Positions 29,932 to 32,626 of a stretch of 32,626 nucleotides of DNA are shown one piece after another. A model generated the notes under the pieces. That model had not been told where the DNA came from. It saw only the letters and a list, made by a program, of their open reading frames with translations, and made no database searches. Numbering within the stretch: the stretch's first letter is position 1; the number at the start of each line of letters is the position of its first letter. Both the position numbers and the translations under genes were made by a program. The stretch comes from Candidatus Berkelbacteria bacterium. Lineage in GTDB: Bacteria; Patescibacteriota; UBA1384; XYA2-FULL-43-10; CAINNR01. The stretch covers positions 30,624-63,249 of the forward strand of contig JAPLVG010000022.1 in assembly GCA_026397235.1 (NCBI GenBank), given 5' to 3'.

Positions 29932-30006
29932 TGGAGCGGGTGAGGGGAATCGAACCCCTGTGTTCTGCTTGGAAAGCAGACATAATAACCATTATACGAC
30001 ACCCGC
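29932..30006 (-). tRNA. tRNA-Gly(TCC)
   Basis: Minus-strand GCGGGTG...CACCCGC-T-CCA with anticodon loop TTTCCAA. Confidence 0.92.
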
Positions 30007-30260
30007 TGGTTGGAGTGACAGGATTCGGTCACCGATATTTTTCTGCTGAAAAATTCGTCGACTCCGGCTCAGCGCCGTCGCGCCTCCGCCTTTCGAATCC
30101 CGTAAAACCATATAATATTTTTTGGTCGAATTTGCTGAACGAAGTTCGAACTTATTTTGAACAAAACTCCGAAAGCAAATAACAAATACAACTATAGCGC
30201 ATTTCTCCTTAAAATTCCAGCCTGCCCCGTTACAAAACGCTTTTTGTTTTACGGGGAGTA

Positions 30261-30318
30261 TATAATTTCTGTGCGGCCGTGGAGGGGTGTGGGGAGGAAA
30301 CGGCCGCACACTTTTTTT
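30261..30318 (+). ncRNA. Candidate ~45-nt hairpin RNA with its own -10 element and terminator
   Basis: TATAAT (30261-30266), then GTGCGGCCGT (30271-30280)/ACGGCCGCAC (30300-30309) perfect 10-bp stem, loop GGAGGGGTGTGGGGAGGAA, T7 tract. Confidence 0.5.
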
Positions 30319-30381: not shown

Positions 30382-31575
30382 ATGCGCGAAGGCGAAGGAT
30401 ATGATGCAGATCAAGTGCGAGAAGAAGCTCAAAAAATAACTGATTTAGTTGGTGGACACGGGACAAAAGAAGATATTGAGGTGGCGGAAGGGGCGGTGGA
30501 GAAAAATTTTCCTAATATCCCTGAAAATATTGAGGGTAGGAAACCACCGACCGAAAGAGAATTTTCCAGAGAAGAATATTTTAGAATAGTTGCACCAAAA
30601 GTATCGGCAGTCGTTGATTTTTTGCTAGCCAGCGCTGAAAAAATTGGCGATCTACAACTGCAAGCATTTGCACAATTTGCCAAAGATAAAGTTGAATTGG
30701 CAAGGCAGTGTTTTGATTATATTAGACAAGAAACAAATATATCTCCCGAAGATAAAAAACATCTTTTTAATTTAGCTAAGTCGGCACTACTTCTCAATCT
30801 TGAAACATTTAAATATGGTGAAAAAACAGAACTTAGAACTTTTCTCTCCAATCATGATGATCTAGCTAGAATGATCGAATCTCGTTGGTCAGGTGCAAAA
30901 GATATGCTCTATGATCCAAGCAAAAATGACATTCGGGAAAATTTTCGAGAGACGGTTCGTCGCATGCTTTCTGCAGAAATTGAGGCAAGACAATTTGATC
31001 CAAATTCATCTATTGAGCATCTCGAAAGATTCTTACCAACAATGCCGGGTTCGACATCTACAGAAGAATCAATAAATTCCTATTTGCAAAGCAGTGAATC
31101 AACTATCAGAGAATATGCCGGCATGAATATGATAGATTTTGCAAAATATGTTCAAGCAAAAGTTTCAGAAACGCATGGGCAGAACTTGCAAACCAATCCA
31201 GATTTAATCAAAATTGAAGAAGAACTTTCATCAATCAAAAAGAAAAATCTTGAAGCCGCTGGCACAAATGTCAACTACATTGACCGTCAGGAAAAATTAA
31301 GACTAGTTCGAGATCTAAGGTTTGGTCGCATTGCCCCAGAAGAGCTACAAACGGAACCGGCAATTACAGAAATCTATGAAGATCCTGATTACAACAAAAT
31401 CATCGGCCAAAATCTTCGCCAGCACCGGCAGGCATTTAACGACGAAGTACTCTCAAGCATTGATTTACCACCAGAAGAACGCAAAACTAGATTAATTAAT
31501 TTACTGGAGAGTTTTGGTCTTTCTGAACCAAACCTAATTGCAGTAGAAGAGTTGGTGATGAAATATTTTTCCTGA
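30382..31575 (+). CDS. Hypothetical protein, 397 aa (constant N-terminal block + variable C-terminal region A)
   Basis: Likely ATG at 30382 after GGGAGG. N-terminus MREGEGYDADQVREEAQKITDLVGGHGTKEDIEVAEGAVEK. Confidence 0.78.
   Translation: MREGEGYDADQVREEAQKITDLVGGHGTKEDIEVAEGAVEKNFPNIPENIEGRKPPTEREFSREEYFRIVAPKVSAVVDFLLASAEKIGDLQLQAFAQFAKDKVELARQCFDYIRQETNISPEDKKHLFNLAKSALLLNLETFKYGEKTELRTFLSNHDDLARMIESRWSGAKDMLYDPSKNDIRENFRETVRRMLSAEIEARQFDPNSSIEHLERFLPTMPGSTSTEESINSYLQSSESTIREYAGMNMIDFAKYVQAKVSETHGQNLQTNPDLIKIEEELSSIKKKNLEAAGTNVNYIDRQEKLRLVRDLRFGRIAPEELQTEPAITEIYEDPDYNKIIGQNLRQHRQAFNDEVLSSIDLPPEERKTRLINLLESFGLSEPNLIAVEELVMKYFS
30406..30506. repeat. Left arm of perfect 101-bp inverted repeat
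   Basis: Identical to the reverse complement of 32526..32626 over all 101 nt. Confidence 0.97.
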
Positions 31576-31609
31576 AATCCCACCGTTCTTTTAGAATAAT
31601 GGAGACACC

Positions 31610-32626
31610 CTAATTATTTGCAAGTTCTTCCATTCTCGCTGATAGCATTTCTCTTTTTTTAGTTAAATTTATATCGAACTTTGGATCAGCCAAGTTTATG
31701 ATGTCATCCTTGATTGTCTTGACCCAACCCTGAAAATATTGATTTTCGTGATAAAAATTACTTATGGGTTCAGGTTGTAACGCAAGGTCTAATTTATCCA
31801 AATCCAGGCAAAATGCAGCCTTTAAAACTTCCATTACCATTCCCAACAGTGCCACATTAGTTGTGAAGGGAGATGAGTCTGCTTCAAAATGCTTCAACAA
31901 TTCAAAAATATGATCAGAAACTTGTAAAAACTGTTTATCTTTTTCTATTTTATTTAACAGATCTATTTTTTCCTGTTCACGTGTTTCTGGCAGTGCATCA
32001 AGAGATGTCTGTGAAAACACGCCTTGCCTTTCTAATATTTCTCTTTCTGTTTCATTATCACTTGATCCAAGTAGCTCTTCTAAATTTAGTTGGGCGACTT
32101 GATTTACTATTTTTAGTATCACTGAAGCAGGTGTGTCCTCTTCTCCAACTGCTGGTGTACAATCCATCAGAAGATAATCATCATTTAATTCGGCAGCCCA
32201 TCGCTTTGTTATTACTCGACTTATTTTCCCGTCTGGTAGAAATGACAGTGTTATGGTGAGAGTTAGTGAACCATATTCCTCTTCCGACCAAGCATGTCCA
32301 GGACTTCTATAACCAATGTTGACATTTAGTATCAAATCATTATTATGGTGGTCAATTTCAATCGTTCGAAATGTTAAATCTTCCACTCCCTCGGCCTTTT
32401 CATTAACAGATAATTTTTCTGGATTATAATCATTGGGTATACCATGCAAATATTCTGTCGTAACCGGAATAAATACTTTGATGTAAAGTGCTCTAATTTT
32501 ATCCGTAAATTGTTGCAGATTTGCTTTTTTCTCCACCGCCCCTTCCGCCACCTCAATATCTTCTTTTGTCCCGTGTCCACCAACTAAATCAGTTATTTTT
32601 TGAGCTTCTTCTCGCACTTGATCTGC
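31610..32626 (-). CDS. Hypothetical protein (same constant N-terminal block + variable C-terminal region B); 5' end probably beyond window
   Basis: Reading frame is open to the window edge. Its N-terminal sequence is identical to that of 30382..31575 and then diverges completely (KKANLQQFTDKIRALYIKV...). Confidence 0.78.
   Translation of the reverse strand, partial: ADQVREEAQKITDLVGGHGTKEDIEVAEGAVEKKANLQQFTDKIRALYIKVFIPVTTEYLHGIPNDYNPEKLSVNEKAEGVEDLTFRTIEIDHHNNDLILNVNIGYRSPGHAWSEEEYGSLTLTITLSFLPDGKISRVITKRWAAELNDDYLLMDCTPAVGEEDTPASVILKIVNQVAQLNLEELLGSSDNETEREILERQGVFSQTSLDALPETREQEKIDLLNKIEKDKQFLQVSDHIFELLKHFEADSSPFTTNVALLGMVMEVLKAAFCLDLDKLDLALQPEPISNFYHENQYFQGWVKTIKDDIINLADPKFDINLTKKREMLSARMEELANN
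32526..32626. repeat. Right arm of perfect 101-bp inverted repeat (may extend past the window)
   Basis: See 30406..30506. Confidence 0.97.

Follow-up and report, generated by a model that had tools for sequence, protein, structure and literature searches.

A perfect 101-nt inverted repeat shared by two convergent orphan genes at a contig end in a Candidatus Berkelbacteria genome

The window analysed here is a stretch of 32,626 nt from a Candidatus Berkelbacteria bacterium, corresponding to C5:30624-63249, where C5 is one of the 28 contigs of a 925-kb assembly (99.7% complete by tool estimate). C5 ends at position 63249, which is position 32626 of the window, and, as the initial annotation reported, this end lies inside a repeat. 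Two convergent genes, tail to tail with 34 nt in between, occupy the right end of the window and are preceded by a hairpin and tRNA-related sequences. The features, in window coordinates, are:

29932..30006, minus strand: tRNA-Gly(TCC), abutting the tRNA-Pro-like fragment
30007..30027, minus strand: fragment resembling the 3' end of a tRNA-Pro, with a 20/21 nt match to the tRNA-Pro on contig C12 (stretch L077, 5698-5718)
30270..30310, plus strand: hairpin with a G-rich loop, followed by a T run; the only other places with its loop motif are next to the serine-recombinase elements on contigs C3 and C15
30382..31575, plus strand: gene 1, complete, encoding an orphan protein of 397 aa, its ATG with GGGAGG upstream
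30406..30506, plus strand: left arm of the inverted repeat, codons 9-42 of gene 1
31610..32626, minus strand: gene 2, an orphan with 338 visible codons and its 5' end past the contig end
32526..32626, minus strand: right arm, identical to the left arm; the last 101 bases of C5 and the 5' end of the visible part of gene 2

The two arms form a perfect inverted repeat of 101 nt (100% complementary, no mismatch) and are separated by 2,019 nt. A chance origin is excluded, because the next best inverted repeat within 29.0-32.6 kb spans 24 nt at 83% identity. Both genes read the arm in frame 0, its other two forward frames carry stops, and a codon-frequency score trained on the long ORFs of the window favours this shared frame both within the arm and over the remainder of each gene. 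The claim of an exact repeat common to two convergent genes is thus borne out, down to the reading frame. Its placement at the 5' end of the coding regions needs some qualification: the arms lie near the start, but the repeat begins 24 nt past the gene 1 ATG, and the visible repeat contains neither a start codon nor a ribosome-binding site. Since the right arm is the contig terminus, the start of gene 2 is out of sight and nothing past the arm can be read; gene 2 has no start of its own in the visible sequence.

The encoded proteins share an N-terminal segment of about 34 residues. Beyond the arm they show no similarity to each other (best BLASTP E 0.36), in agreement with the earlier description of their C-terminal regions as unrelated. 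Neither protein has a trustworthy family match in Pfam, PHROGs, PADLOC or NCBIfam; these searches, like the comparison of gene 2 with the PDB, gave nothing, or weak matches far under the cut-off. No relatives of either protein were found by protein search in 100 related genomes, or by pattern search in genome contigs and viral contigs. AlphaFold single-sequence models of the two proteins have mean pLDDT values of 42 and 46, too poor for fold comparison. To the left, the neighbouring genes encode, among others, an O-antigen polymerase Wzy and a protein with a weak match to Wzz, with no functional tie to genes 1 and 2 seen; synteny by way of the Wzy gene in a genus-mate and two family members gave no match.

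The sequence to the left of the repeat has features of a mobile setting. The hairpin lies 95 nt left of the repeat, and its near-constant loop motif, GGAGGGGNGTGGGGAGGA, occurs at four sites in the genome: one beside the C3 element, two beside the C15 element and the one in the window (window 30270-30310; stretch L078, 4409-4458 and 6454-6496, on C3; stretch L079, 4980-5095, on C15). The stems vary in sequence yet stay paired. Three of these four occurrences adjoin inverted repeats of serine recombinases. The tRNA-Pro fragment is possibly the remnant of an attachment site. From position 30007 rightwards, we infer, the sequence belongs or once belonged to a tRNA-targeted element, whose recombinase, if there is one, would lie past the contig end.

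Elsewhere in the genome, eight proteins match the Resolvase domain. All four of those scanned also match the Recombinase domain, and for three of the four the match to the zinc ribbon of large serine recombinases is above the cut-off. The stretches fetched for seven of the eight loci include a tRNA gene, which in most cases sits at or overlaps the recombinase gene's 3' end. The partners are tRNA-Lys on C18, tRNA-Glu on C20 and at the start of C22, tRNA-Pro on C12, tRNA-Ala on C3 and tRNA-Leu on C15, and a tRNA-Ser lies about 1.6 kb from the recombinase locus on C10. Several of these loci carry inverted repeats of 94-135 nt. Three recombinases lie between near-perfect inverted repeats of 131-135 nt, one copy of each pair falling at the 3' coding end of the recombinase itself:

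C3:74558-76361 (stretch L078)
C15:5150-6938 (stretch L079)
C12:12731-14486 (stretch L077)

On C3 and C15, most of the recombinase gene is enclosed by 135-nt repeats, one arm of which covers the recombinase's own 3' coding end and adjoins the 3' end of the tRNA. On C22 (C22:21853-23461; stretch L076, 4854-4974 and 6100-6462), an inverted repeat of 94-99 nt upstream of the serine recombinase encloses about 1.15 kb of different-looking sequence; its left copy runs on into 27 nt of the 5' coding part of the recombinase, skipping the intervening sequence. On C20 (stretch L074, 2084-2179 and 3271-3365), two different small ORFs are each preceded by a near-identical tract of about 95 nt that runs up to the ATG; this pair is another duplicated 5' module, in direct orientation and outside the coding part. 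A genome of about 0.9 Mb carries eight large serine recombinases, most of them ending at or overlapping tRNA 3' ends (see also stretches L073, L074 and L075). These tRNA-targeting elements with long inverted repeats merit separate study.

A survey covering about 0.5 Mb of the genome, made up of the stretches around recombinases and large pieces of long contigs and thus not a random sample, found no further local inverted repeats reaching 90 nt and 95% identity except at the serine-recombinase loci on C3, C12, C15 and C22. Within this 0.5 Mb, the C5 pair is the only repeat that has no recombinase between or directly beside its visible arms. The locus resembles the C3, C15 and C12 elements in that coding ends are overlapped by long near-perfect inverted repeats, spaced about 1.5-2 kb apart, and it shares the adjacent G-rich-loop hairpin with those on C3 and C15. 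It differs from all three in that two orphan ORFs rather than a recombinase lie between the arms, and the arm sequence shows no similarity to the inverted-repeat arms of the serine-recombinase elements.

All 56 contig ends of the assembly were compared. Several share exactly 141 nt, the overlap expected if the contigs came from a k-mer assembler run at k = 141, and N gaps are found at or close to other repeats. Several other contig ends stop within an exact tract, 79 to about 131 nt long, which recurs inside another or the same contig. The tract at the end of C9 is shared with C18 over 121 nt, and the homologous proteins carry on past it as paralogues. At the start of C3, a 79-nt tract with homology continuing to the gene end matches C5:2789, a second copy of the same gene, which, from its sequence, is probably a member of the PaaX-like family seen in the window. 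The end of C12 is the outer arm of the 131-nt inverted repeat around its serine recombinase, a repeat type that C3 and C15 carry intact, both arms being internal to the contig. The start of C26 repeats C1:136-254 (stretch L095, 1-119, against stretch L081, 136-254) and shares a gene start with it, upstream of which C26 has tRNA-like sequence and C1 has repeat sequence; these appear to be two real junctions. The C26 and C1 pair may also represent the occupied and empty forms of an insertion site.

The four contig-end repeats examined therefore look genuine. Like the C9/C18 and C3/C5:2789 cases, the repeat studied here is an exact in-frame tract common to two genes that ends a contig; unlike in the C9/C18 case, the proteins do not stay homologous after it. 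No other contig end in the bin overlaps or continues the end of C5, so its neighbour is missing, short or unbinned. Together with the in-frame fit and the coding signal, the control contig ends indicate that the right arm is probably real. The initial annotation had cautioned that a contig end at a repeat could be an assembly effect; the right arm is indeed the terminus and the caution is warranted, but these controls suggest a genuine repeat.

Nothing in the data shows inversion itself. A search of the flanks for a serine or tyrosine recombinase, as had been proposed, gave no Resolvase or Phage_integrase match on C5 (63 kb, up to the contig end), and the right flank lies past that end; the single Phage_integrase match of the genome is at C10:43536-44039. 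The best recombination-site dyad in the arm has 8 of 13 matches, a score reached by 22% of shuffles and thus not above chance. The left arm is assembled unbroken into gene 1 along a single path, which argues against frequent inversion. As both genes are orphans, relatives provide no second orientation for comparison. The genome encodes RecA.

In shufflons, a constant N-terminal part is combined with alternative C-terminal parts lying between inverted repeats, and Rci drives the swapping of pilin C-termini. The C5 locus has the same arrangement of a constant N-terminal part and alternative C-terminal parts, but it consists of a single segment with one long 101-nt repeat in place of short repeated sites, and it has neither a pilin nor a tyrosine recombinase on C5, where the right flank lies beyond the contig end. 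A further parallel is found in the pneumococcal SpnIII and Spn556II hsdS loci, where inverted repeats within the coding sequence flank alternative coding parts in opposite orientation (PMC4948785, PMC6620402). Arms of 15, 85 and about 300 bp invert in these hsdS genes (PMC4948785, PMC6620402), and the 101-nt arm falls within this range. In pneumococcus, hsdS inversion does not depend on RecA, and the local recombinase accounts for it only in part (PMC6620402); the absence of a visible recombinase is therefore weak evidence. The likeness does not extend to gene content: neither protein matches an HsdS or restriction family in Pfam, NCBIfam or PADLOC, and no hsdM, hsdR or recombinase is seen nearby on C5.

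In the reading we favour, to which we give an even chance, a genuine repeat was created when a 5' coding module in a recombination-prone, tRNA-associated mobile island recently underwent inverted partial duplication, or gene conversion. The hairpin common to two serine-recombinase elements, the tRNA-Pro 3' fragment and the location of serine recombinases at tRNAs point to this mobile setting. Such an event would copy the 5' module and yield two proteins whose bodies differ but which share an N-terminal segment of about 34 residues. Inversion of the 2-kb segment by RecA or another recombinase could then exchange the bodies behind the left promoter, but this is most likely rare or absent. No direct sign of a duplication event is seen at the locus, and the right arm, being the contig terminus, may be an assembly stub, which counts against this reading. 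An artefact of that kind, with the end of C5 continued into sequence that does not belong there and the real 5' part of gene 2, a different one, left unassembled, is rather unlikely. It is suggested by the match continuing to the final base of the contig, by the lack of any contig end continuing past the right arm, by the exact 141-nt overlaps and the N gaps at repeats, and by a junction that sits in a run of A. A random stub, however, would be in frame one third of the time and would rarely coincide, in coding orientation, with the first codons of a gene, and the contig-end repeats used as controls look real.

An active invertible switch, in which either C-terminal body could be placed behind the left start and promoter and the distal copy would serve as a silent cassette, is unlikely. 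Its topology fits inversion of the HsdS or shufflon type, and the zero divergence and length of the arms, the lack of a start in visible gene 2 and the presence of eight serine recombinases and RecA in the genome are all consistent with it. Against these stand the absence of a recombinase on C5, an arm dyad no better than shuffles, a left junction assembled in one form only and the failure of searches in 100 related genomes and by pattern to find a relative in the opposite orientation. The evidence neither supports nor excludes a switch; the segment could in principle invert. Still more doubtful is the specific combination of a two-state coding inversion in a small-genome bacterium, with two hitherto unseen proteins exchanging their bodies behind one N-terminal segment, an island associated with tRNA genes and mobilised by large serine recombinases, and a recombinase just past the contig end. 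As the contig ends inside the repeat, sequencing reads are needed before a switch is claimed.

Duplication of the 5' module with little or no inversion thus remains the preferred explanation. If the segment does invert, the locus would be a phase-variation locus built of two orphan proteins, in a lineage for which we found no report of phase variation in the open-access literature. If it does not, it would illustrate how a 5' module can be duplicated among orphan genes in the vicinity of mobile elements.
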